NCBI GenBank assembly: GCA_027214125.1
Contig: JAPWHF010000001.1
Coordinates: 310,001-374,000 of the forward strand
Length of the DNA: 64,000 nt
Direction of reading: 5' to 3'
Source of the DNA: Zoogloeaceae bacterium G21618-S1
Lineage (GTDB): Bacteria; Pseudomonadota; Gammaproteobacteria; Burkholderiales; Rhodocyclaceae
Made by a program: the position numbers and the translations under genes. The notes under the pieces were generated by a model. The model was not told the DNA's origin, ran no database searches, and worked only from the letters and a program-made list of their open reading frames with translations. This document shows, piece after piece, positions 42,121 to 54,477 of the stretch (its first letter is position 1; every line of letters starts with the position of its first letter).

Positions 42121-42269
42121 TCGCCGCTCGTGACGGAAGGGGTGAGACGATCCGCCAAGCGTTCCGCTTGAAGGACTGCTTCGCATAAAAACCAGACGGA
42201 AGGGCAATATCGGCTAGTCGGCCGTTGCTGTCATCCAAAAAAGCCCCCTGTCTGACGGCAGTAGATCCG

Positions 42270-43238
42270 TTATCTGACGTTCGGATCTGTTTGATCAACT
42301 ACGCTACGGCCTTGGTACGACATCAGAATGAAAGGCTTTGCGATTTCGAGATCGACTTGGCTGGCTACGGACAACTCTAAGTCGCCCGTCCCCCAGTGGC
42401 CTTGCTCACTGACGTCGCGACCGGTGGGTGGGAATGGCTTCAGCGTGCTGGGCGTGAGGTGCAAATAGAGAACCAGGCGGTTCTTTTGCGCCACGACCGT
42501 TGCGAAATTCTTAAGTCGCTTGAACGCAACGTACAGTCGTAGTTCTTTGCGTTGCACGTCGTCGCCCAAGGACATTACGTAGTCCTCCAGTGAGGACAGC
42601 AATTCGGTCAGATGGGCTGGAAGTAAGGGCAACCACTCAGCGAATGAGCGATCACGCTGAGCTGGTTTGGTTTGAATCGAATCGGCCGGTGACAGCCGGG
42701 CCGGTTTGGTGGCGGGAGTTTTGCCGTTGGCGCTGCTGGTCGCGTTGACGAGCTCTAATAGCAGCAGCTCGTCGCCGAAACGCCGATAGCGGATCAGCTC
42801 GATATTGCGGTTGATCTGCTGCACGGCATGCCCATCGTATTTCGTGAAGTCCGCTGCAATACACACCAAACGGGGTGCGCTCCAGTCGATGGCATCTGCT
42901 GCCGCCTTCCCCAGCGCGTCCATCACCAGCAGCTTGAACTCGGCCTGATGATCCATCAACCAATCCAGATAGAACAGGCCCTGGTTGATGACGTTTTCAC
43001 CCACCGAGCGCTTGTACTCCAAGATCACTGGGCAGTTGTTCTCGTCCAACCCGAGCGAGTCGATGCGACCGCCGTGCGTCTTGCCCGTTGAGTATTCTGT
43101 AGCCAGAAAACGAATGCCGAGCAAGGGCACCAAATTGGCCTCGATCAGCGTTTGCAGCGGCTTCTCCAGGTCGGAGGCATCGCCCTGCAGTTCGAAGGCC
43201 ATGCCAGCTTGGAGGCGGAAGAGTTTGATGTCGCTCAT
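42270..43238 (-). CDS. PD-(D/E)XK-like nuclease with DUF5655-type C-terminus
   Basis: 322 residues. The N-terminal third has GGRIDSLGLDENNCPVILEYKRS, giving Asp60, Glu74 and Lys76 in the D-x(n)-E-x-K layout of PD-(D/E)XK nucleases (NucS/DUF91-like). It continues with GENVINQGLFYLDWLMDHQAEF, typical of this family. The C-terminal third (AEWLPLLPAHLTELLSSLEDYVMSLGDDVQRKELRLYVAFKRLKNF, described by position about 205-250) resembles the DUF5655 module. Genes of this type are often linked to restriction and phage-defence loci. It is last in the run, 3 nt after the HNH gene, so it is co-transcribed. Its substrate is unknown. Confidence 0.75.
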   Translation of the reverse strand: MSDIKLFRLQAGMAFELQGDASDLEKPLQTLIEANLVPLLGIRFLATEYSTGKTHGGRIDSLGLDENNCPVILEYKRSVGENVINQGLFYLDWLMDHQAEFKLLVMDALGKAAADAIDWSAPRLVCIAADFTKYDGHAVQQINRNIELIRYRRFGDELLLLELVNATSSANGKTPATKPARLSPADSIQTKPAQRDRSFAEWLPLLPAHLTELLSSLEDYVMSLGDDVQRKELRLYVAFKRLKNFATVVAQKNRLVLYLHLTPSTLKPFPPTGRDVSEQGHWGTGDLELSVASQVDLEIAKPFILMSYQGRSVVDQTDPNVR

Positions 43239-43241
43239 CGT

Positions 43242-44078
43242 TCATCTCGTCGTCGTAACGTCCTCGGGCTGGGCACAAAATGCCCCCGCTCCCATGGCGA
43301 TCAGTTTTGCGCGCGCTGCCCGTGCATATGGGGCGCTCGTGGTTGTTGCCCGGCGCAATTGCTCCTGCAAGCGGTCAACCGCAGCCATGTCAGTGCCTGC
43401 GTCCACAATGTCCATTAGGTTTTCGTAGCCGTCCTTGACTTCTCGCATCGCGCGCTTACGCGCTGTGATGAGATTCCCGAGGTTGAGCCCGTAGATCTCA
43501 ATTGACTTGCTGGCTCGCATCTGTTTCGTTGCCCCAAGACAAGTCTTGCTTTCAACCGCACGGCCATCGTCTGGGTCGATGTCGATGAGGGCGACGTCCT
43601 CTCTCACTGTGGGATCAAGAAGAACGGGCAGCTCTTTGTCTTGGCAGCGATCATCCCATGTGGCACACGGGCTGCCGTCAAGCAGTGGAAACCAGCTTCC
43701 TTTGCCCACGGTTTCTTCTGTGGCCTCGTCAGTGCTTAGGCGATTTGATCTTCCTGCCGAGTATCGGAAGTTGTCGATCGAGAACGCCAGCCATGGATAT
43801 CCATCGTCTTCAGCCGCGTCTGATCGCTTGGCCGCCTTCTTTGGCCGGAAGTGATCCACGTCGAAGAAGGACTGGGGATCATTGCTTTCAGAGTACCAAC
43901 ACTTGCCGTGGGACATCTTGGCCAGGTGCTTACCAAACGCCCGCCAGATGTGTGCTTTTTTTTCGATGTAAGCCTTCCGATCTGCAGGCGCCTTAGCCTC
44001 AAGTTCCTTTTGCGCACGTGCTGCTACATCAAGCAGCTTCTTGGGTATCAGGTTCGGATCGCATTTTACAAAGATCAA
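43242..44078 (-). CDS. HNH endonuclease (PtuB-like, Septu/retron-associated type)
   Basis: The 278-residue protein has its HNH site split as GKCWYSE (Cys60) and VDHFRPKKAA (74-83), the C-x-Y-C/S-E ... DxEHFRPK layout of the TIGR02646-type nucleases that accompany Septu and Ec78-type retron ATPases. Its start overlaps the stop of the AAA ATPase by 4 nt (ATGA), so the two are coupled. In Septu, PtuB is the nuclease effector controlled by the ATPase PtuA. No reverse transcriptase is present, which argues against a retron. The nuclease call is strong; the defence role is by analogy. Confidence 0.8.
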   Translation of the reverse strand: MIFVKCDPNLIPKKLLDVAARAQKELEAKAPADRKAYIEKKAHIWRAFGKHLAKMSHGKCWYSESNDPQSFFDVDHFRPKKAAKRSDAAEDDGYPWLAFSIDNFRYSAGRSNRLSTDEATEETVGKGSWFPLLDGSPCATWDDRCQDKELPVLLDPTVREDVALIDIDPDDGRAVESKTCLGATKQMRASKSIEIYGLNLGNLITARKRAMREVKDGYENLMDIVDAGTDMAAVDRLQEQLRRATTTSAPYARAARAKLIAMGAGAFCAQPEDVTTTR

Positions 44079-45670
44079 GGCTCTACCCTGTCGTCCATGA
44101 GCTTTTTAATAAGCAGCTTCATGCCTTGATGGCGGCGCTCGATTTGTTCGGGCGTCAGTGGGGGGCGATCGGCATACCTCACGTCGTGCCAAGCCCTCAG
44201 AAAATCCTGGTAGAGAGGCTCGCGGTCTTCGTAGAGGAATCCCCGGCGCGCAAGCTCATCATTCAATTCAATCAATCGACGCTCATCCTCGTCTGACCTC
44301 TTGGGCGCATGCGCCAAAGCGTTTCGGTCATCAACGAGCTGCTGAGTCTCAACGTCTAGGCTGGTACGTAAGGAGAAGATTTCAGTGAGCGTGGCTGTAA
44401 ACCCCATGCCCTTTGGGTCAGCATACGGCGCTGATGCAACAACCCGGCCATCTTCGGACTGTGTGATCACCCGGACCTCGCTTCGGGAAAGCGCCGATAT
44501 CGTCAACGGGTTGTGGGAGGTCAGCACGATGTGACAGTGTTCCCTCTCGGCGGCTATGTCAGTCCAGTCCTCGATGAGGTTTAGGTAGCTGTGCTGCCAA
44601 TGCGGGTTGAGGTGTGTGTCGGGCTCGTCGAGCAGGAATAGCGCACGCTTGCCACGCGAAACCCGGATAAGGCCCAGCACCATCAACAACTGCCGCTCAC
44701 CGTCAGACAGGTCGGCGAAGCCCACGTCGCCACTCGCGTCGTTGTTGCGTATTACCCACACCTGGATCTCGCGGATCAGGTCAGAGATATCAACCGCCTC
44801 CAGCGCGTAGAACATCTCTCGCTCGTTTTTAAACTGCTTGGCTAGTTGATTTAAGTGTTCAATTGACCGCAAGAACGCTGCGTACTGCGGCTCGACTTGC
44901 TTCTTGTCTCGATAGTCATCTACCGCGTTCCCGTCCAGCGCGAAGGGATGGAAGGCGAGCTCCTTGAAGCGCCGGACAGTTCGACCCGCAGGGCCGCCCG
45001 CGCCCCAGAGATCTTCTGCGCCCTGCTTCTTGCTTCCCGTGTACCAAGACGGCTCTCGGAACAATGCCAGAAGCGAATGGAAGCCAGTAATACCCAGTCG
45101 ATCGGCCAGCTCAGCGGCGACCTTCGGTGCTGGGAATGAAAACAGCGCCATTAGTGCCAAGACCCCGTGGATGGGCCGGCAGTAAAACAGCCTGCGGCCC
45201 ACCTGAGCCTGCGCGACTTTGGTCGCATCATCTTCGCGCTTGATTGCGTTGTAGTAGCGTCGCTGGTGGCTGTCGAACAGCGCTTCCAGCCGTCGGCTGC
45301 CGCCTGAGTAATAGCCGAACACCAAGTCCGGAAACCACTCGACCTTGCGCTTCTCGAATTCGGTGCGCGTGACTTCTTGCCCATCGACAGTAATGGCTGG
45401 CTCGCCAGGGAAGTTGCTCAGGCACACGCGTGGTGGCTCCGGCACGGTGGCGCCCGGTGGCTGGATGCGATAGGTCACTCGGTACTGAAAGCGCGGCTCA
45501 TTGCGCCGCAGGTCCACCCAGCGAAAGACCTGGGTAATAGCCTCAAGGAGGTTGGACTTGCCGGCGCCGTTCTGGCCGATCAACACCGTGGTGAGCTGGC
45601 GTTCATCGAAGTCCAGCTCCAGCCCGCGAAGATTCTTGAAACCGTCGATGCTGACCTTATCCAGCCGCAT
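44075..45670 (-). CDS. AAA/ABC-type ATPase (PtuA-like)
   Basis: The 531-residue RecF/SMC-type ATPase has Walker A GQNGAGKS at 32-39, an ABC-signature region (FADLSDGERQLLMVLGLIRVSRG) and Walker B ALFLLDEPDTHLNP near 345, then a D-loop His (TSHNPLTISAL). The C-terminal region contains a helical segment with ALAHAPKRSDEDERRLIELNDEL. Its HNH partner follows with a 4-nt overlap, matching the PtuA-PtuB (Septu) pair. The start overlaps the 3' end of hsdS by 14 nt, so this pair is embedded in the restriction operon rather than standing alone. Confidence 0.83.
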   Translation of the reverse strand: MRLDKVSIDGFKNLRGLELDFDERQLTTVLIGQNGAGKSNLLEAITQVFRWVDLRRNEPRFQYRVTYRIQPPGATVPEPPRVCLSNFPGEPAITVDGQEVTRTEFEKRKVEWFPDLVFGYYSGGSRRLEALFDSHQRRYYNAIKREDDATKVAQAQVGRRLFYCRPIHGVLALMALFSFPAPKVAAELADRLGITGFHSLLALFREPSWYTGSKKQGAEDLWGAGGPAGRTVRRFKELAFHPFALDGNAVDDYRDKKQVEPQYAAFLRSIEHLNQLAKQFKNEREMFYALEAVDISDLIREIQVWVIRNNDASGDVGFADLSDGERQLLMVLGLIRVSRGKRALFLLDEPDTHLNPHWQHSYLNLIEDWTDIAAEREHCHIVLTSHNPLTISALSRSEVRVITQSEDGRVVASAPYADPKGMGFTATLTEIFSLRTSLDVETQQLVDDRNALAHAPKRSDEDERRLIELNDELARRGFLYEDREPLYQDFLRAWHDVRYADRPPLTPEQIERRHQGMKLLIKKLMDDRVEP

Positions 45671-47261
45671 GCCCGGGCTCCAGCGTGGTTTGGTTGTCCG
45701 TCACGTGGCCTTGCTCCACCTCCCAAGCCAGTTGCTTGTAGAAATCGGCGACTGGCAGCTCGGACACTTTGAAAAGCGCATCGGCGCTAGTGGGCGTCCC
45801 AATGCGGCGAAGGTGCTCGGCGAGGTAGGGCTGGCCCATCACATCGTCATCTTGGCGGCTCTTGGTCATGGCAGCGGTCTCTTTGGGGGCACGCGGCAGG
45901 CGGCCGCGTCGGGGTGTGCGGGACGATGCGGTGTCCGTGCGCGCGTTGCGTTGGGTGGCAATGCGGGCCAGTAGGACGCTTGCCGGCTCGTCTCTCGGGT
46001 CTTGCGGGACGAGCTCGCCGCGGAAGGCTTTGGCTAGGGCTAAGGGGGCGAGTCGGCGTGTATGCTCCGCGGCTACCGTGTGCCGTTGCTCCACCTGACT
46101 CAATGCGCGAAGCAGCCGATCCGCCCGCCGTACGATCTCTAGTTGCTCATCCATGGGTGGCAGATGAACCGGCGCTGACATGACCGTCTGCTGGTTGATC
46201 TTGGGCATGTTGCCGGCCGTGCCAGTGGCGTGGTCGCGGAAGTACCTTCTCGTAGACTCAGTACTCAGCAGGAGGTAGAGAAATCGGCCGTCCACGCGGT
46301 TGTTGGCGCGGCACTTCATCATCAGGTCGGGATAGATGAAGGTCTGTGACGGACCGTCAAAGATTGCACTCACACCGACGTACTCAAGCGTGTTCGCACG
46401 CTGAATCAGGATGTCCCCAGGCTCCAGCCAAAGGTGGGAATCGGGTGGAACCGATTCATCGATGAACTTCGTGTGTTGCGACAGGAAGCGTCCGGAGGTG
46501 GTCGCTGAAAGCGTCAAGGAACGAACCGACGTCTCGTAGTCAACCGCCCTGGGCGAGTAGCCATTTCTCGGCTTGCCGTCGAGCAAGTCACCGATGCTGG
46601 TGGGGATCCAAGCGGAGGTTTCGCGTTCGTCGCGCCAATCAGCTGTAAGCGAACCGTCGCTCGCCGCGCCCAGCACCGCCTTCCGGAACCGCTTGAGCAA
46701 CGCCGGAATAGCCTCCAACCGGTCCTGGCAGGCTTGGATGCGCGCCAGCAGGGTGTCGAGTTGGTCGGCGATGCGGGTCTGTTCCGCTGCGGGGGCGATC
46801 CTGAGGGGAAGCGTCGCCGCTGCCGCTCCCGAAAGCTCCTTGAACGTCGTTCCCGTTGCAATGGCCTCAGCCTCGGGCTTGAGGTGCTTCAGCTGCCAGT
46901 ACACGAATCGAGGATCGATCTCCGCAGGCAGTACGAAACTTTTGAACCCCTGGTTCGTCGAGATCTCGTTGGCGGCGATGGCCACGTAGCCGATCGGCGC
47001 CCGGCTGGAGAAGAGCACGGTGCCTTTGGGCATCAACGTTGCGCCGCAGCGTGCGAGGCCGGCTTCGGACAAGTCGCGCGCGCCACGCGAAATGAACTGA
47101 CCTCGATATCCGCTCAGGTCCGCTGGCGTCACCCAGGGAATGCCATGACCCACCGGAGCGAAGTTGTCTGGGTCATGCGACGGGGGCGTCCCGCCGCCCA
47201 CGACGCGCGCCACCGATCCAATCGGTGCAACGTCCCAGCCCTCTGGAAGTGCTGTAGTCAC
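45657..47261 (-). CDS. hsdS: Type I restriction-modification specificity subunit
   Basis: 534 residues with two target-recognition domains: the first (GWDVAPIGSVARVVGGGTPPS ... FVYWQLKHLK) and the second (WIPTSIGDLLDGKPRNGYSP ... FLYLLLSTESTRRYF). Each is followed by a conserved helix with PLRIAPAAEQTRIADQLDTLLARI or PVHLPPMDEQLEIVRRADRLLRAL. A C-terminal extension of about 130 residues (from PQDPRDEPASVLLARI) is longer than in short HsdS proteins, and a distinct final segment starts near MTKSRQDDD. It sets DNA sequence specificity for HsdM and HsdR. It overlaps hsdM by 4 nt and the ATPase gene by 14 nt. Confidence 0.92.
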   Translation of the reverse strand: MTTALPEGWDVAPIGSVARVVGGGTPPSHDPDNFAPVGHGIPWVTPADLSGYRGQFISRGARDLSEAGLARCGATLMPKGTVLFSSRAPIGYVAIAANEISTNQGFKSFVLPAEIDPRFVYWQLKHLKPEAEAIATGTTFKELSGAAAATLPLRIAPAAEQTRIADQLDTLLARIQACQDRLEAIPALLKRFRKAVLGAASDGSLTADWRDERETSAWIPTSIGDLLDGKPRNGYSPRAVDYETSVRSLTLSATTSGRFLSQHTKFIDESVPPDSHLWLEPGDILIQRANTLEYVGVSAIFDGPSQTFIYPDLMMKCRANNRVDGRFLYLLLSTESTRRYFRDHATGTAGNMPKINQQTVMSAPVHLPPMDEQLEIVRRADRLLRALSQVEQRHTVAAEHTRRLAPLALAKAFRGELVPQDPRDEPASVLLARIATQRNARTDTASSRTPRRGRLPRAPKETAAMTKSRQDDDVMGQPYLAEHLRRIGTPTSADALFKVSELPVADFYKQLAWEVEQGHVTDNQTTLEPGHAAG

Positions 47262-48853
47262 CGATGCGCCTCCGAAAGACTTTCCACTTCCCCGCCCTCC
47301 GCGAGCAAATCTTCGAGCGGGCTATCCGGATCCTCGCCCAGTTCTTCTATCAGTGCGCGCAGCTCAAGAACGGCCGTGTTGAGTTCGCGGAGTGCAAGCC
47401 GGGCAATCGCGGAAGGCTCATCCCGCAACTGAAGCGCTGTGTGCGCGCTGTCGTCCTTCAGCCAGCTGATGTCCAAGCTGTCGCCTCGCTGCGCGATCTG
47501 CTCGCGCGTGAAGCGCCGCCAGCGCCCCGCCTCGCCTGCGTCTTGGCGCGCGGACAGCGCGGCCGGGCCGCCGTGCGGATCGCTGCCGAACACGTCCTCG
47601 AACTTGTCGCGCAGCTGGCTGGTCGGGGCATCAGCCGACGTGCGGAAGTAGTCGCGGGTGAAGGGCGTGCGCTTGCCGAAAACTGGCATGTTGGCGCGCA
47701 TGTCATACACCCACACCTCCTTGGTATTGCCCTTGTCCGTCTCCCCGCGGGTGAAGAACAGCACGTTGGTCTTCACGCCTTGGGCGTAGAAGATGCCGGT
47801 TGGTAGGCGCAGGATGGTGTGCAGGTTGCACTTGTCCATCAGGTCGCGCCGGATGTCGGTGCCGATGTTGCTCTCGAAGAGCACGTTGTCGGGCAGGACC
47901 ACCGCGGCACGCCCACCAGGTTTGAGCGCGCGATAGATGTGCTGCAGGAAGGCGAACTGTTTGTTGCTCGTGATGTAGGTGAGATCGCCGCGGGTAGGCA
48001 CGCCACCGCCCTTCTTTGTGCCGAACGGTGGGTTGCTGAGGATGAGCGTTGCCGGCGGCAGTTGCGTGTGGTCGTCGCTCAGCGTGTCGCCGTAGGTCAC
48101 GCCGCCTTCGATACCGTGAAGCAGCATGTTCATCAGCGCCAGGCGGTGCGTGTCTTGCACCAACTCCATGCCGTGGAAGGTCTGATGCCGGTAAGCGCGC
48201 TGCGCTTCATCGCTGAGACTATCGAAGTCGTTGTGCTGGCGGAGGTAGTTGTTAGCGGCGATGAGAAAGCCGCAGGTGCCAGCGGCCGGGTCCTGGATGA
48301 CATCGCCCAACTGCGGCTTCATCACGCTGACGATGCTGTCGATCAGGTGGCGTGGAGTGAAATACTGGCCCGCGCCGCTTTTCTTCTCACCGGCGTTGCG
48401 TTCCAGCAGGTCTTCGTACAGGTCGCCCAGGTCGTCGCGGTCAACGCTGTACCAGTCGAGGCTGTCGATGTCGGTCACGAGCTTGTTCAGCGTGGCCGGC
48501 TTGGTGATGAAGGTGTTGGCGTTGGCGTAAATTTCCTGCACCGCGTCGCGGCCGTGCAAACCGTAGTCCAGCAACATTTCTTTGTATATATCGAGGCGAT
48601 CAGGCGCCGAGGCGTTGAGCAGATCGTCCCAGCGGATGCCGGGTTGCTCGACCTTTGGCGCGCCCTTGGTTCGCTCGACGGCTTTCCATACCTTGAGCCG
48701 GTCTTCCTGCCCGGTTTCTTTCATCATCTTGAGAAACAGCAGGTAGGTCAGCTCGCTGAGGTATTGGTGGTAGGTAACGCCGTCGTCACGAAGAATGTGG
48801 CAGAGCGACCAGAGTTTTGCACCAATATCGAGTGCGGCAGTGTGGTTGGTCAT
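47258..48853 (-). CDS. hsdM: Type I restriction-modification DNA methyltransferase subunit
   Basis: This 531-residue N6-adenine methyltransferase has an N-terminal HsdM_N helical domain (LWSLCHILRDDGVTYHQYLSELTYLLFLKMM), S-adenosylmethionine motif I (DPAAGTCGFLIAAN, near 184) and catalytic motif IV (LILSNPPFGTKKGG, near 272). These define an N6_Mtase of type I systems. It lies 17 nt downstream of hsdR and overlaps hsdS by 4 nt, forming the R-M-S order. It protects host DNA and helps target recognition. Confidence 0.95.
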   Translation of the reverse strand: MTNHTAALDIGAKLWSLCHILRDDGVTYHQYLSELTYLLFLKMMKETGQEDRLKVWKAVERTKGAPKVEQPGIRWDDLLNASAPDRLDIYKEMLLDYGLHGRDAVQEIYANANTFITKPATLNKLVTDIDSLDWYSVDRDDLGDLYEDLLERNAGEKKSGAGQYFTPRHLIDSIVSVMKPQLGDVIQDPAAGTCGFLIAANNYLRQHNDFDSLSDEAQRAYRHQTFHGMELVQDTHRLALMNMLLHGIEGGVTYGDTLSDDHTQLPPATLILSNPPFGTKKGGGVPTRGDLTYITSNKQFAFLQHIYRALKPGGRAAVVLPDNVLFESNIGTDIRRDLMDKCNLHTILRLPTGIFYAQGVKTNVLFFTRGETDKGNTKEVWVYDMRANMPVFGKRTPFTRDYFRTSADAPTSQLRDKFEDVFGSDPHGGPAALSARQDAGEAGRWRRFTREQIAQRGDSLDISWLKDDSAHTALQLRDEPSAIARLALRELNTAVLELRALIEELGEDPDSPLEDLLAEGGEVESLSEAHR

Positions 48854-48870
48854 GAGATCGGGATTTGGCG

Positions 48871-51800
48871 TTAAGCAGATTTAGGTTGAGAAGCCCACAG
48901 CGCATCGTTGAATGCGGCCAGCACGGGCTGGAGTTTGCCGTTGAAGATCTTATCGAGTCGATTGAAACCGCCACCTTCGCGTTTGAAGATGAGGTCTGGA
49001 TCATCCAGTGCCTCACGGTCTACCAGCACATTGGCTTTGGTCTGAGCAGCAATGCGCTTGAGCCAGTCGCGTTGCGGCGTGGTCCAGGTAGTGCCTGCGG
49101 GTGGATTCGCCAGCAGATGCTGAAGTGCGTGGTCTACGCGTTCGCTGTAAGGCAAGAGCGGATCGCCGATGGCCGCCTGGCGGATGTAGCCGACGATGCG
49201 GGCAGCGATATCCTGGTTGGTGAGTTCGCGCCACGCGGTGGCCAGGTTGGTTTCGGTATAGCCCGCGGCGTCTAGGGCAAGCACCAATTCGCGCAATTGG
49301 GCGCGGGTAAGGTCGCGCGGGCGCGTGAGCACGGTCAATAGCGCGGGGATGTCGTTACCGTGGCTCTTGAGGTAGTCGCCGAACTCGCGCAGGTAGTCCT
49401 CGGGCTTATGTGCCTTGCCATAACCACGCTCGATGCGCTCGAAGCGGTCTGGGTGATCGGAAACATACAAGGTGTGGGGCGTGCCATCGGATTTGCGATC
49501 GAGCAACTCACCGAGGCCGGGGTTCTGGATGAACCAGTTGGCGACGTCGCCCAGTGGCATGGCTTTCAGCGCTTGAATAAAGGCATCTGGTGACATGCCG
49601 GCTTTGGCTTCGAAAGCCTCGACGTTCTCTGCCGTGAGGTGCCGCTTCTTGCGTTGCAGCTTGGCGAGGAATTGGTCGCGCGCGAGGGCTGTTGCGGACT
49701 CGTCTTTGAGAGAGGCGAGTTCCTCGGCCAGTTGGGTGAAACCAATCTTGGGATTGACGACCACCGGTTGCATGGCGGTCATGTCGCCGACAGCCTCGAA
49801 GATGCGCACAGCGTCGAAGACGCGGAACGATTCCTTTTCCTCGGCCCCGTTGAAATTACATAGCCGGGTGGCACGGCCGAGCATCTGGTCGAACAGGATG
49901 CGGCTATTCACCTGACGCAAGAAGACGAGGTTGCAGATCTCGGGCACGTCCACACCGGTGGTGAGCAGGTCCACGGTAACGGCGACGTTGGGCTGGCGTT
50001 CGTTCTTGTAGCGCCGGATCAGTTGCAAGGGCTTGTCCGCGGCGCCGGTGATCTTGATGACTGCGTCGTCCTCAACACTGCCATATTGCTTGGCAAAGGC
50101 TTGCTTGAGCAGATCGACCACCATGTCGGCATGGCTGTCGCTGACGCAAAAGACGAGTGTCTTGCGCCGTGACGCCGGGTCTAGTTCTTGTGCAAGGTAA
50201 TCGCAGATCACTTCGTTGAACGCACGGGTGATGACCTTGCGGTTGAAGTCGTCCACCTTGAGCTTGATCTCGTCAGGTGCCTTGAATAACTCGACCTGTT
50301 GGCGGCCGGTGTCATATACCTTGACCTCTTCGCCCACTCGCCAGGTCATGCCGTGCGTGGAGAGCTCGGTGTGGATTTGCACCGGCGGTTCGAAATCTAC
50401 TAGGTAGCCGTCGATCACCGCTTCGCGATAGGTGTAGGTGAAAGCCGGTGCGCCGAAAATCTGTGTTGTGTGCAGGGCAGGCGTGGCCGTGAGCCCGATC
50501 TTGACCGCATCAAAGTAATCGAGGATCCGCCGGTATTTGGAAATGTAGTCGTCGTAGCCACGGAAACTGAGCTCAGTATCCGACAACTCGCGGTCGAGCA
50601 GATAGCCGCGGTGGCATTCATCGACCACGATGCAGTCGTATTGATCGATTGGCGGCGGCAAGACATCGTCGGTGGTGTAGAGGACGCGCTGGACCATTCC
50701 TTGGACGGTGGCGATGTGAACGGCTGTGTCTTCGTCTGGCTGCTGATGCTCCAATTCCTTGATGCCGAAGATATCGGCGAAGGTCTGCAGCTTTTCCATT
50801 CGCGTGTCTTTGAACGCGTTGGCGGCCTGTTCGCCAAGGGCCGAGCGGTCCACCAGGAAGAGGATGCGACGAAAGCGTTTCGCCTTCAGTAATCGGTAAA
50901 TTAAGGCGATGCAGGTTTTTGTTTTGCCGGTGCCGGTTGCCATAGCCAGAAGAATGGCGAGCTGACCGCTACCGATGGCACCTTCAACGGCACGAATGGC
51001 TTGCTCTTGGTACGGACGCAAGGGGAAACCATAGTCGCAAGGAGTGGCGTCCAGTTCGGCGTGGGCTTGGTCGATCTCCTGCTGAAGGAGCCCCTTGAGA
51101 CCCTCTGGGGTGTACCAGCCGTCGAGTGCGTGACTCAGATTTTCGGGGCGGCGTAGATCGCAGAACCAAACGCCGCTTTGGTGTGACAGCTGACGAAGGT
51201 AAGGACGCCCGTTCGACGAAAATGCGAAAGGCACTCTAAACGCGCCTTCGGCGCCGTAGTTGGATCCTGGCAGCTCAGTTTCAGCCGAAGCCTTGAACCC
51301 CCGGCTGTAACGCTTGGCTTGTTGCAAGGCGCTAGAGACGTCGAGGTTCTTTCGCTTGGCCTCAATGACCGCGACGGGCTGCAAGCCGATAAACAATACG
51401 TAGTCTGCCGGCCCCGTTTCCGTCGGCCATTCAGCGATGGCAAGGTTCTGGCCTCGCTGAGGTCTGGCGCCATTGGAAAAACTCAGATTGCGAGAGTCGA
51501 CGGTCCAACCAGCCGCAGCGAGCTGTTCGTCGATGATCTTGCGAGTATCTGATTCGCTCAGTTTGAGGGTTGCCGCAGCGTTATTGGCCGCTTCGACCAG
51601 CTGTGCAACAGTTTGCGACGGCTGGGACGCGGCTTGTGCCTGAGCCGCCTCAAGACGTTGAGTGAGCTCGTGCTTTGCCGTTTCGGCCTCGGCGGCCATC
51701 GACTCCCAGAAAGCGCGCTCTTCTTCAGTCTGCTGTGCGTGTGCCTGTATTGCTTCAAGCGCTTGAGTCGCGTTTTGGTGGGCAGCTCGAAAGGCTTGCA

Positions 51801-52281
51801 GCTCTTGCTGCAAGGCATCCAACTCCGCCTTGAGTTCGGCGTTTTCGTCGCTCGGTGGTGCAGGCGGCACGAAGGGCCCAGACTTAAACGCCGGGTCTTT
51901 AAATGTGCGGTGGAACCAAACGCCTAGTTGCCACGCCAAGCGCATTGCCACCAAGGCCGTGCGGTGGTCTCCCGCGAGATTGTGGTTCGCGTCGTTTCCG
52001 GCCTTGCGAATTTCGTGGAAGAGTCCGCCAACCTCTCTTGGAAGGATGCCGTGGTCTTGCAGCCGGCGCAGCAAGTCGACCTGTCTTTCGTCCGCCGATG
52101 TGAATACGCCGACGCGGGATGCTGCTGACTGCGCCAAGCCTTCAGCAAGTTGTCGAAGTTTCAGTAGGCAGGTGTTCGGGTCATCGGCAAAGTAGCGCTC
52201 GGCGAGCATTCCCAAGCGTTCAAGCTGCTCGTCGTGGGCTTGAAGTTGCGAGAAGTTGCTTTGTTGGCGAGCACGGTTCAT
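48871..52281 (-). CDS. hsdR: Type I restriction endonuclease, HsdR translocase/nuclease subunit
   Basis: 1136 residues. An N-terminal DUF4145-like helical domain (LERLGMLAERYFADDPNTCL) and a coiled coil (about 145-225) precede a PD-(D/E)XK nuclease with QPVAVIEAKRKNLDVSSA near 304. The SF2 helicase motor follows, with ATGTGKTKT near 448, DECHRGYLLDRE near 552, GLTATPALHT and the C-terminal helicase half (TTGVDVPEICNLVFLRQVNS). An EcoEI-type C-terminus completes it. It cuts unmethylated DNA after ATP-driven translocation. The Fic gene ends 9 nt upstream. Confidence 0.95.
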   Translation of the reverse strand: MNRARQQSNFSQLQAHDEQLERLGMLAERYFADDPNTCLLKLRQLAEGLAQSAASRVGVFTSADERQVDLLRRLQDHGILPREVGGLFHEIRKAGNDANHNLAGDHRTALVAMRLAWQLGVWFHRTFKDPAFKSGPFVPPAPPSDENAELKAELDALQQELQAFRAAHQNATQALEAIQAHAQQTEEERAFWESMAAEAETAKHELTQRLEAAQAQAASQPSQTVAQLVEAANNAAATLKLSESDTRKIIDEQLAAAGWTVDSRNLSFSNGARPQRGQNLAIAEWPTETGPADYVLFIGLQPVAVIEAKRKNLDVSSALQQAKRYSRGFKASAETELPGSNYGAEGAFRVPFAFSSNGRPYLRQLSHQSGVWFCDLRRPENLSHALDGWYTPEGLKGLLQQEIDQAHAELDATPCDYGFPLRPYQEQAIRAVEGAIGSGQLAILLAMATGTGKTKTCIALIYRLLKAKRFRRILFLVDRSALGEQAANAFKDTRMEKLQTFADIFGIKELEHQQPDEDTAVHIATVQGMVQRVLYTTDDVLPPPIDQYDCIVVDECHRGYLLDRELSDTELSFRGYDDYISKYRRILDYFDAVKIGLTATPALHTTQIFGAPAFTYTYREAVIDGYLVDFEPPVQIHTELSTHGMTWRVGEEVKVYDTGRQQVELFKAPDEIKLKVDDFNRKVITRAFNEVICDYLAQELDPASRRKTLVFCVSDSHADMVVDLLKQAFAKQYGSVEDDAVIKITGAADKPLQLIRRYKNERQPNVAVTVDLLTTGVDVPEICNLVFLRQVNSRILFDQMLGRATRLCNFNGAEEKESFRVFDAVRIFEAVGDMTAMQPVVVNPKIGFTQLAEELASLKDESATALARDQFLAKLQRKKRHLTAENVEAFEAKAGMSPDAFIQALKAMPLGDVANWFIQNPGLGELLDRKSDGTPHTLYVSDHPDRFERIERGYGKAHKPEDYLREFGDYLKSHGNDIPALLTVLTRPRDLTRAQLRELVLALDAAGYTETNLATAWRELTNQDIAARIVGYIRQAAIGDPLLPYSERVDHALQHLLANPPAGTTWTTPQRDWLKRIAAQTKANVLVDREALDDPDLIFKREGGGFNRLDKIFNGKLQPVLAAFNDALWASQPKSA

Positions 52282-52290
52282 GGCGCTTCC

Positions 52291-53361
52291 TTATCGCAGC
52301 TCGTACCAGACGCCTCTGCCGGCACCATGTTGCGCAAGATGTCCTTGTTCAACCAGCGCACGAAAATGCTGCTTGAGCGTGTTGCGATTTCCGTCAGTGA
52401 GACGGATTGCGTCGCCCATGGTGATGCGGCCGTGCTCTCGGGCGAACTCAACGATTTGAAGCGAAAGCTCGGGAAGTGACGCCAATACGAGCTTTTCACG
52501 CTCGACCTTTCGGTTTAGCCGACGCACTTGTTCGGCCAGGGCGCGCAGGAAGAAAACCAACCACGGTTGCCAATTCGGTGCGTCGCTGCGAATCGTTCCT
52601 TGGGTTTGCCGTAGCGCTAGATAGTAAGCCTCTTTGCTCTGCTCGATGACGCTCTCGAGCGAGCTGTATGGGACATAAGCGTATCCCGCCTGCAGGAGCA
52701 AAAGCGTGGTCAGAACCCGGCTCAGACGTCCGTTTCCATCTTGGAAAGGATGGATCTCCAAGAAGACCACAACCAAAATACCGATCAACAATAGCGGGTG
52801 AAGTCGGGTCGTCGCACGTGCTTCGTTGAACCAGTCGATCAACTCCGTCATGAGGGCTGGCGTATCGAAAGGTGTGGCGGTTGCGAAAACGACGCCGAGT
52901 TGGTTTCCATCCTCGTCGAAGGCGACCACGCTGTTCGTGGAGGTCTTGTAATTGCCCCGGTGCCAGGCGTCTTTCTCACTGTATGTGAGCAGGTCGCGGT
53001 GCAATTGCTTAACGTGGTTTTCGGTCAAGGCGATGTCTCGCCACGACGAGAACACAAGCTCCATGACTTCCGCGTAGCCTGCAACTTCTTGCTCGTCTCG
53101 GGTGGTGAAGGACTTGATCTGGAGATTGGAGAGTAGACGCTCAACATCGCGATCGGACAGTCGGCTACCCTCAATGCGGGTCGAAGAGCCGATACTCTCG
53201 ATCGTGGCGACTCGGCGCAATGCTGAAAGACGATCCGGTGCAAGCGTGCCAAGAGCACGCCAAGCGCCCTTGAACTCATCGATACCAGCGATGAGGCTCA
53301 GGATTTCGGGCGTTATCTGAACGGCATTAGAGCGGATCATGGGAACCAATACTACATCCAT
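52291..53361 (-). CDS. Fic-domain AMPylase-like protein with N-terminal self-inhibitory motif
   Basis: The 356-residue protein has Fic active-site motif HPFQDGNGR at 204-212 (His204, conserved DGNGR). The inhibitory helix motif S-x3-E-G is at 60-65 (STRIEG) near the N-terminus, so this is a class II Fic protein that restrains itself. A C-terminal winged helix (ITMGDAIRLTDGNRNTLKQHF) is common in this subgroup. Fic enzymes transfer AMP or another phosphate-containing group to protein hydroxyls. The gene opens the defence run, 9 nt before hsdR, and may act as a regulator or abortive-infection effector; that role is inference. No convincing ribosome-binding site was seen at 53361, and an internal Met (residue 8) is possible. 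Confidence 0.88.
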   Translation of the reverse strand: MDVVLVPMIRSNAVQITPEILSLIAGIDEFKGAWRALGTLAPDRLSALRRVATIESIGSSTRIEGSRLSDRDVERLLSNLQIKSFTTRDEQEVAGYAEVMELVFSSWRDIALTENHVKQLHRDLLTYSEKDAWHRGNYKTSTNSVVAFDEDGNQLGVVFATATPFDTPALMTELIDWFNEARATTRLHPLLLIGILVVVFLEIHPFQDGNGRLSRVLTTLLLLQAGYAYVPYSSLESVIEQSKEAYYLALRQTQGTIRSDAPNWQPWLVFFLRALAEQVRRLNRKVEREKLVLASLPELSLQIVEFAREHGRITMGDAIRLTDGNRNTLKQHFRALVEQGHLAQHGAGRGVWYELR

Positions 53362-53516
53362 TCACACCCATTTTTACAGAACTATAATTTCGCCAACGAT
53401 TCGCCACGCACTTTGGCTGCACCAGAGGACTGTGTGGCGTTGCAGAAGATCGCTAGTTGACTGATCTGCGTTGCCCGCCGAACCCCTCCTGACGAACCCG
53501 GCGGACTGAAAACGCC

Positions 53517-54131
53517 TCAAATCTCAATCTGTTCTGAGATTTCCAAGGCATCATCGACTTCGATGCCGAGGTATCTCACGGTGCTCTCCAGCTTCGCATG
53601 ACCAAGCAATAGCTGAACTGCCCGGAGGTTCTTCGTACGCTTGTATATCAGCGTCGCTTTCGTCCTGCGCATGGAGTGAGTGCCGTAGGCCGATGGATCA
53701 AGCCCTGCGGCGGCGACCCAATGGTCGACGATCCTAGCGTACTGACGTGTCGACAAGTGCGGCGAGCTGTGTAGCCGACTGGGAAACAAAAAATCGTGCA
53801 CTTGTAGCTTCGCCGATTCAAGCCATGCAGCGATGGCGTTGCGTGTTGGTTCTGTTAGTTCGAACTGCACTGGGCGTTTGGTCTTTCGCTGAATGACCAT
53901 TGCACGCGCGAGGACTTGCCCCCCGTGCGTTACATCGTGAACGCGAATATTTACGAGGTCACACCCGCGCAACTTGCTGTCGATGGCCAGATTGAACAGG
54001 GCCAGATCGCGTACTTGATGGTCGTTCTGGAGGTTGATCCGGATAGTCCATATCTCCTTGGGCTTGAGTGGTGCCTTCTGGCCCACCAGTTTTCCTTTAT
54101 TCCACGAGTCCCTTTGCTCACAGGATTCCAT
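53517..54131 (-). CDS. Tyrosine-type site-specific recombinase (integrase)
   Basis: The 204-residue protein has the catalytic set Arg55 (KLRGCDLV), Lys84 region (QRKTKRP), His152/Arg155 (THSMRRTK), His178 (LGHAKLEST) and nucleophile Tyr187 (VRYLGIEVDDAL). It lacks a normal N-terminal core-binding domain, so it is short; similar single-domain integrases are widespread near genomic islands. All catalytic residues are intact. It lies at the right edge of the lower-G+C block and 155 nt from the Fic gene, the expected place for the enzyme that inserted the island. Confidence 0.92.
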   Translation of the reverse strand: MESCEQRDSWNKGKLVGQKAPLKPKEIWTIRINLQNDHQVRDLALFNLAIDSKLRGCDLVNIRVHDVTHGGQVLARAMVIQRKTKRPVQFELTEPTRNAIAAWLESAKLQVHDFLFPSRLHSSPHLSTRQYARIVDHWVAAAGLDPSAYGTHSMRRTKATLIYKRTKNLRAVQLLLGHAKLESTVRYLGIEVDDALEISEQIEI

Positions 54132-54477
54132 GACGGTCTCCTTGGCTGTTGATCGGACTTCTATTCTGGGTCGGGACTTGCGGTACAGCCAGGAGTGGCT
54201 GCGGTGAGATTTGGGCTTGAGGGTCGGCTTACTGACGGGTTGCTGCCGCTTCAGAATAAATCGGCGAGCGACCGGAACGGCCGAGGAGCACTCAATCAGC
54301 AGTCAGCCTGTACGGCAGCTCGGCTCAGAAACCTGCCACTGATCCGTCGAGACGCTGAATGTCTCTTGAGGATCGACAGCTACCGCAAAAGGCACACCCG
54401 CCACCACGAAGGCTCCGAGGGAGCCCTTCATGGTTGCTCTCATCGCCTGTGACAAAGGCATCGCTGGATCTCACCTT
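54132..54477. other. Non-coding junction between the integrase and the CaiB-type gene
   Basis: This 346-bp stretch holds no convincing gene. Short open frames on the plus strand have no recognisable motif, codon pattern or ribosome-binding site. No tRNA or strong terminator could be read. It is the likely right border of the island and would hold any attachment site. Confidence 0.5.

Follow-up and report, generated by a model that had tools for sequence, protein, structure and literature searches.

A clade-specific winged-helix domain of HsdS in PtuAB-linked type I restriction loci, with a candidate internal start codon

In a minus-strand gene run of Zoogloeaceae bacterium G21618-S1, a Septu-like pair consisting of the ATPase PtuA and the HNH nuclease PtuB is encoded directly behind the type I specificity subunit HsdS, and this HsdS carries an extra C-terminal winged-helix domain, referred to below as the tail. 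The run lies in a stretch of 64,000 nucleotides (nt), which we call the window (assembly GCA_027214125.1, contig JAPWHF010000001.1, positions 310,001 to 374,000). The hsdS-ptuA linkage recurs in other genomes, and among the HsdS proteins examined the tail is restricted to one clade, where its evolution is coupled to that of PtuA. Relatives of the window's hsdS bear the signature of an internal start codon in front of the domain. We propose that the type I enzyme holds PtuAB, as a latent nuclease, through the winged-helix domain and lets it go when restriction is countered, as with PrrC; we give this proposal an even chance.

hsdS, ptuA and ptuB form a fixed unit

Relatives of PtuA were taken from the best 80 of 100 confirmed genome places found through two conserved peptide patterns, from 17 plasmid records with a match (six of them read), from 101 genomes of relatives, from 398 genomes of the phylum and from viral contigs. 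They were scored with a hidden Markov model (HMM) iterated on the same loci. Across the 107 fetched loci and the window, ptuA immediately follows hsdS in 35 of the 36 PtuA rows scoring at least 450 bits, in 60 of 63 at 220 bits or more, and in 63 of 96 at 100 bits or more; ptuB comes next in 35, 44 and 49 of these adjacent rows, respectively. These counts hold the window twice (the second time as L002) and one other locus twice (L005 and L057, near copies with the same PtuA and tail, which the non-redundant count given further below drops). The one exception among the 36 top rows is L047, which reaches the end of its contig.

Of 41 distinct loci that carry the tail, 26 have hsdM upstream and 11 have it downstream of ptuAB, and in 4 it is unseen; hsdS thus keeps to ptuA where hsdM moves. 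HsdR is present in 21 of these loci and unseen in the fetched stretches, many of them cut, of the other 20. This neighbour count leaves out L005, and both it and the start-motif counts below leave out L002, L109, L139 and L144 (all four being the window again), L154 (equal to L153) and L146 (from the genome of L151). The fixed unit is hsdS-ptuA-ptuB, found in type I loci of several phyla. An earlier note on the window had described the Septu-like pair as stitched to hsdS, and this holds both here and across the PtuA clade that spans those phyla.

The core is also present on six IMG/VR contigs (L152-L157, five distinct loci); the module may be carried by viruses or prophages, unless these contigs are stretches of host DNA. 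Interrupted genes were seen for PtuA in L146 and L151 (one genome) and for HsdR, HsdS and PtuB in L029, which reflects either decay of the module in some lineages or assembly errors.

The HsdS tail is a winged-helix domain restricted to one clade

The window's HsdS (534 amino acids, aa) is 70 aa longer than EcoKI HsdS (464 aa), to which it aligns over residues 4-427; the earlier note had not remarked on this extra length. In the AlphaFold2 model of the full protein, a confident core is followed by a linker (residues 448-474) with a predicted local distance difference test score (pLDDT) below 50 and by a winged helix at residues 479-529 in blocks of 87-91. Modelled alone, the tail again forms a winged helix (pLDDT 73). 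Its topology, helix-strand-helix-helix-strand-strand, is that of a winged helix, and winged-helix regulators top the Foldseek list (best E 0.019, none below 0.001). The window's tail had no Pfam match, and the 27 tails scanned yielded no consistent family.

In an alignment, 35 HsdS proteins of the first set share this domain, preceded by a variable linker. A domain HMM matches these 35 and the window's second copy, and leave-out HMMs, built on one joint alignment from tails less than 40% identical only, recognise 34 of the 35 (L026 fails). All seven distinct clade loci fetched later carry the tail, which is present in 41 of the 42 distinct clade HsdS beside PtuA with hsdS in view, the exception being L046. 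None of 29 control HsdS (family NF007278, 150 genomes of the order) was matched, which rules out the tail as a general HsdS feature; two controls are short or cut (L131, L132), and three have other PtuA-like ATPases downstream (L108, L112 and L123, at 91, 35 and 65 bits). Against 274 genomes of the class, the domain HMM matched in five: that of the window; G334, with two contig pieces of which one overlaps ptuA; and three with weak matches, all to winged-helix domains (HTH_12 of RNase R in two, HTH_11 of a WYL regulator in one).

We also considered the tail as a separate gene and rejected this, as it was not found as its own open reading frame (ORF) of at least 30 aa in the loci searched; the one short ORF, of 51 aa in L143, is due to a contig edge. 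In L046, a 41-aa ORF in the gap is not matched by the domain HMM.

Two further observations were made by eye. The HsdS at 7777-9987 of L048 seemingly has two tail-like domains in tandem. The HsdS proteins of L027 (5326-6906), L068, L075, L077 and L079 have a different-looking tail, in several resembling YxxIKxWVFEALxxGxLxQ, and adjoin another R-M (restriction-modification)-linked ATPase clade; the L027 ATPase is annotated as restriction system-associated AAA. This is possibly a second, parallel adaptor.

The tail evolves with PtuA

In a quick tree of 97 PtuA-like rows, the 42 tail-labelled rows fall into one clade of 44 with a support of 93, under the 95 mark. The other two rows of the clade are L046, whose hsdS lacks the tail, and L047, whose contig is cut. 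L146 and L151 represent one genome, and L143 was labelled from a tail fragment; L051, with a short PtuA, is absent from the tree, and its best BLASTP matches are clade members. The closest outsiders (L052, L053, L056) are R-M-linked and tail-less. The origins of the clade include Pseudomonadota, Chloroflexota, Spirochaetota, Verrucomicrobiota, Planctomycetota, Bacteroidota and Melainabacteria, several of the genomes being metagenome bins.

All parts were available for 33 of the 43 loci; in these, the tail's tree distances correlate with those of PtuA (rho 0.72), PtuB (0.54), HsdM (0.51) and the HsdS core (0.36). The partial correlation of tail and PtuA given HsdM is 0.59 (reached in 0 of 500 permutations), and that of tail and HsdM given PtuA is 0.12 (17 of 500). 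To evolve with PtuA rather than with HsdS is how a coupling domain would be expected to look.

hsdS relatives carry an internal start signature

Many hsdS genes have an in-frame ATG or GTG at the linker/domain boundary after an AAGGAG-like sequence. This was counted with a strict rule, requiring GGAG, GAGG, AGGA or AAGG 3-11 nt before ATG or GTG within a span of 36 codons. The span was fixed after the later genes had been seen, with the motif rule unchanged, and a slightly different span likewise gave 20 of 35 in the first set. Twenty of the 35 first-set genes pass, where the remaining sequence of these genes predicts 3.7; shuffles of synonymous codons average 12.6, and 0 of 400 reach 20. Seven of eight later-fetched genes pass (1.05 expected; shuffles 3.0, with 1 of 400 reaching 7), as do 14 of 27 genes whose tails are less than 60% identical (3.1 expected; shuffle mean 8.7, with 0 of 400 reaching 14). 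Of the pooled 43 genes, 27 pass in frame, where about 5 are expected; the two other frames give 4 and 1, and five spans shifted upstream give 5, 4, 4, 1 and 1.

The window's relatives L028, L003 and L029 are among the passing genes. Most passing genes would yield a predicted free product of 69-84 aa, and L023, L043 and L048 products of 98, 99 and 147 aa. Moreover, GTG replaces the ATG of near relatives with the motif kept in L043, L044 and L138 (relatives L036, L039 and L060), and again in L152 and L153 (relatives L033 and L057). An in-frame start codon with a Shine-Dalgarno sequence in this share of the genes suggests that hsdS may make the domain as a free protein too. Tentatively, and with a little less than even confidence, we read the hsdS of this clade as a two-product gene, which would encode the specificity subunit and a free winged-helix regulator of PtuAB, an antitoxin or sensor, and would couple restriction to an abortive response across several phyla.

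Some of the counts speak against a second product. The AAAGAG upstream of the window's own internal ATG is a weak Shine-Dalgarno sequence and fails the strict motif. The motif likewise fails in 15 of the 35 first-set genes, the window included, and in one of the eight later genes. Furthermore, the amino acids at the site already favour the motif, so that the excess from synonymous codons is moderate. It is also conceivable, although we hold it to be unlikely, that a separate winged-helix gene was fused to hsdS long ago, that its ribosome site lingers and that only the fused protein works. The 13 of 27 non-redundant genes without the strict motif, together with the window, fit such a relic. A relic is harder to reconcile with synonymous codons that favour the motif beyond the shuffles (0 of 400), with GTG standing where near relatives have ATG while the motif is kept, or with the lack of an ORF for the domain alone.

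PtuAB as a possible guard of the type I enzyme

In the proposed mechanism, the type I enzyme would be guarded by a Septu-like effector, and the winged-helix domain, on its flexible linker, would be the adaptor that lets the R-M enzyme bind PtuA-PtuB and keep the complex silent. The adaptor is fused to HsdS and is probably also made separately, as a protein of about 70 aa that begins at the internal start codon and could serve as an antitoxin-like buffer. Once a phage blocks the type I enzyme or keeps it occupied, PtuAB would be released or licensed; PtuA would respond through its ATPase, and the HNH protein PtuB would cut tRNA or phage DNA, stopping the infected cell. The controlling part played by the retron elsewhere would here fall to the type I enzyme, and the winged-helix tail would serve as its handle. 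We infer each of these elements: binding, silencing, trigger, target and production of the free protein.

Precedents exist. PrrC is reported to be encoded in a type IC locus (EcoprrI), held by the enzyme and freed when T4 Stp inhibits it (PMC3874165, PMC12707154). PtuAB of retron-Eco7 is described as toxic unless the reverse transcriptase (RT) and msr-msd are present, with depletion of tRNA-Tyr (PMC11555353), and Septu EcB88 is reported to cleave tRNA-Tyr in the variable loop (PMC13096335).

Several observations weigh against the mechanism. Septu of E. coli ATCC25922 was reported to act on nicked phage DNA (cited in PMC11555353), an activity for which no R-M partner is needed. The domain HMM finds no match in 27 of the 63 HsdS directly upstream of a PtuA-like ATPase. 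L046 has hsdS-ptuA-ptuB inside the clade without the tail domain, and the tail is also absent from the R-M-linked L052 and L053 just outside it; R-M-linked PtuAB can therefore do without the domain at times. The starred tree branches require at least two changes of the tail label, with L046 and the cut contig L047 inside. The domain neighbours ptuA, so the coupled evolution may partly be co-inheritance. Finally, the winged helix could bind DNA instead.

A rival reading, which we consider doubtful and rather improbable, gives the tail a recruiting role: it would bring PtuAB to the DNA under the type I enzyme, where the HNH protein, as a nuclease in addition to HsdR, would cut non-self DNA close to the recognition sites. 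The fusion of the tail to the specificity subunit and its co-evolution with PtuA would suit recruitment, as would the loci in which HsdR is unseen (20 of 41, many stretches being cut). However, HsdR in the other 21 would make a second DNA nuclease redundant, and a free tail protein would compete. The depletion of tRNA-Tyr by the retron-Eco7 pair (PMC11555353) also disfavours it.

The seven-gene run and its passengers

By the ORF list, the run extends on the minus strand from 53361 to 42270 and encodes Fic, HsdR, HsdM, HsdS, PtuA, PtuB and a DUF5655 protein (PDC-S18; Table 1). The genes are separated by gaps of 9 nt (Fic-HsdR), 17 nt (HsdR-HsdM) and 3 nt (PtuB-DUF5655) or overlap by 4 nt (HsdM-HsdS), 14 nt (HsdS-PtuA) and 4 nt (PtuA-PtuB). 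ORF coordinates and profile matches bear out the earlier note's description of seven tightly spaced genes on one strand.

Table 1. Coordinates and supporting matches of the features discussed, in window positions
Feature	Position	Strand	Remarks
Variable island between conserved flanks	42121..54269	.	comparison with relative G006
PDC-S18 protein, 322 aa, NucS-like region and DUF5655 tail	42270..43238	-	PDLC04946 9.5e-139; Pfam DUF5655 42.2 bits
PtuB, HNH nuclease, 278 aa	43242..44078	-	TTG start; PADLOC PDLC00343 2.5e-88
PtuA, ABC/RecF-like ATPase, 531 aa	44075..45670	-	PADLOC PDLC00293 3.8e-174
HsdS, type I specificity subunit with extra C-terminal winged-helix domain, 534 aa	45657..47261	-	PF01420 8.2e-29
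Winged-helix tail domain of HsdS	45660..45845	-	residues 473-534 (domain HMM); helices and strands 479-529
Disordered linker of HsdS, residues 448-474	45840..45920	-	sole listed AlphaFold2 segment with pLDDT <50
Internal in-frame ATG (Met465), linker/domain boundary	45867..45869	-	putative start of a 70-aa winged-helix protein
HsdM, type I methyltransferase subunit, 531 aa	47258..48853	-	PF02384 2.2e-71
HsdR, type I restriction subunit, 1136 aa	48871..52281	-	NF008521 1556 bits (cut-off 729); EcoEI_R_C, ResIII, HSDR_N
Fic protein, 356 aa	52291..53361	-	PF02661 2.3e-17; SoFic PDLC03963 6.7e-47; separable passenger
Tyrosine recombinase ORF, 204 aa	53517..54131	-	profile matches; directly upstream of Fic, near island edge

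The type I set is complete, with HsdR, HsdM and HsdS each full-length. By eye, NPPF in HsdM and EAK and GTGKT in HsdR look intact in the translations, PtuA has Walker A (GQNGAGKS), signature (LSDGE) and Walker B (LLDEPD) sequences, and Fic has HPFQDGNGR and an N-terminal SSTRIEG, a motif of the class II inhibitory type. Residues H76, N103 and N112 of PtuB are invariant across seven aligned sequences, among them the window's. The last gene had been described as a nuclease with a DUF5655-type tail. The tail part stands, and a nuclease is suggested by a NucS_C match under threshold (19.4 bits, cut-off 24) and a D...ExK pattern seen by eye. Sequence searches of the PDB gave no match to PtuB at E 1 and none to the DUF5655 protein at E 0.1. 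Promoter- and terminator-like sites were no commoner than in shuffles, and a tRNA scan of the window found none.

In G006, a relative of the same genus, both flanks are shared at 94-96% identity and enclose 6.1 kb of other DNA, which places the window's insert at about the coordinates of Table 1. The G006 insert has, at the same site and inverted, a Fic gene 90% identical to the window's, and HMMs for the other six genes had no match in the G006 stretch searched; Fic is thus separable from them. Adjoining this Fic gene (L183, 2663-5272) is an 869-aa ORF that by eye looks like a haemagglutinin or contact toxin.

The full seven-gene order is present in two of the 41 winged-helix loci and is not unique to this genome: it recurs in L028 (Candidatus Accumulibacter appositus), where Fic and HsdR overlap by 4 nt and the contig stops inside S18. 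The genome G058 also has hsdS-ptuA-ptuB-S18 (L003, L184), with the contig cut upstream. Since many contigs are cut, the counts for single passengers are lower bounds: Fic is a same-strand neighbour in at least three of the 41 loci (window, L028, L024) and lies on the opposite strand in two more, and PDC-S18 occurs in at least five (window, L003, L028, L057, L153). Two further loci have S18-like ORFs: L047, on a contig that begins within ptuA, and L006, which is not a clade member. Three plasmid records were read among 41 with a PDC-S18 match. In the Cupriavidus record the gene immediately follows hsdS, in the Rhizobium record it neighbours a divergent type I locus, and in the Staphylococcus record it has no R-M neighbours. 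PDC-S18 repeatedly accompanies type I loci as a passenger. Both it and Fic are optional cargo that travels with the core occasionally, and the seven-gene composite is not one fixed system.

Could R-M, PtuAB, Fic and the DUF5655 protein merely share the island, and perhaps a promoter, without any mechanistic link? The lone Fic of G006 and the staphylococcal PDC-S18 point that way, but hsdS-ptuA adjacency across several phyla, an HsdS domain specific to the clade and coupled evolution make general independence very unlikely; it holds for Fic, perhaps for the DUF5655 protein and hardly for PtuAB. That all seven genes form one integrated layered system, as the earlier note had it, is highly improbable: the order shared with L028, the Fic/HsdR overlap there and the four-gene series of G058 are outweighed by the full order in only 2 of 41 loci, Fic on the same strand in 3 and S18 in 5. 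Its layered defence survives in part, as a Septu-like pair tied to hsdS with, most likely, restriction followed by an abortive or nuclease response; the view of Fic and the DUF5655 protein as integral parts is unsupported by these counts and by the Fic of G006 without the others.

Discussion

If the guard mechanism is true, a classical restriction enzyme uses its specificity subunit also to control a toxic nuclease pair, which would explain how PtuAB, found with retrons and alone, can be placed under different sensors. Restriction specificity genes would then join the defence genes with two in-frame products, and annotation has possibly missed a small protein in such loci. The parts themselves are already known: PADLOC has Septu and PDC-S18, and restriction-linked AAA ATPases were noticed earlier. 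Among the open-licence papers listed, for some lists the top entries, titles and abstract openings mention no winged-helix tail or internal start of hsdS and no link between PtuAB and hsdS.

Several labels were tried for the pair and rejected. A retron label was rejected, as PtuA and PtuB score far below the NCBIfam retron-type cut-offs (70.4 of 500 bits and 31.2 of 150), and no reverse transcriptase match was found in the eight proteins scanned (the operon and the recombinase). MADS falls below cut-off (MAD2 85.3 of 720 bits, MAD5 40.7 of 400), PARIS AriA scores 84.8 bits compared with 578.5 for PtuA, and TIGR04435 gives PtuA 119.1 bits at a cut-off of 300. The TIGR04435 family (restriction system-associated AAA ATPase) is nevertheless akin in being named by NCBI for its association with restriction systems, so the R-M linkage of such ATPases is not new; L027, the one locus of that product name read, belongs to a separate clade.

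As in Septu, PtuA and PtuB are an adjacent pair that matches the PADLOC profiles and conserves the HNH positions. Unlike standalone Septu, the pair here follows hsdS, as it does in every clade locus that shows the upstream gene, and the PtuAB pairs of the set that lack hsdS (such as L009, L017, L082, L088 and L089) lie outside the tail clade. Retron I-A (Ec78/Eco7) has a like effector pair under another module, RT-msDNA (PMC11555353), whereas the controller here would be the type I enzyme.

Internal in-frame starts that give a shorter second protein are used in other defence genes: McrB-S comes from mcrB (PMC12707154) and Cas11b from cas8b (PMC11899642). Those products are reported from experiment, whereas the winged-helix product of hsdS is predicted from sequence.

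A parallel in arrangement is PrrC-EcoprrI, in which an anticodon nuclease is embedded in a type IC R-M locus: the gene of an ABC-type ATPase effector likewise lies within a type I operon, and the effector has been proposed to guard the restriction enzyme. Neither PrrC nor RloC is named among the PtuA matches listed (the best 25 of 147 and the best 25 of 56), by far the best match being PtuA at 578 bits. PrrC is a single protein with a separate nuclease domain; here the ATPase and the HNH nuclease are separate proteins, and HsdS has an added winged-helix domain. If the proposal is true, these loci would give the PrrC principle a second and widely spread example, in which a candidate for the coupling domain is identified.

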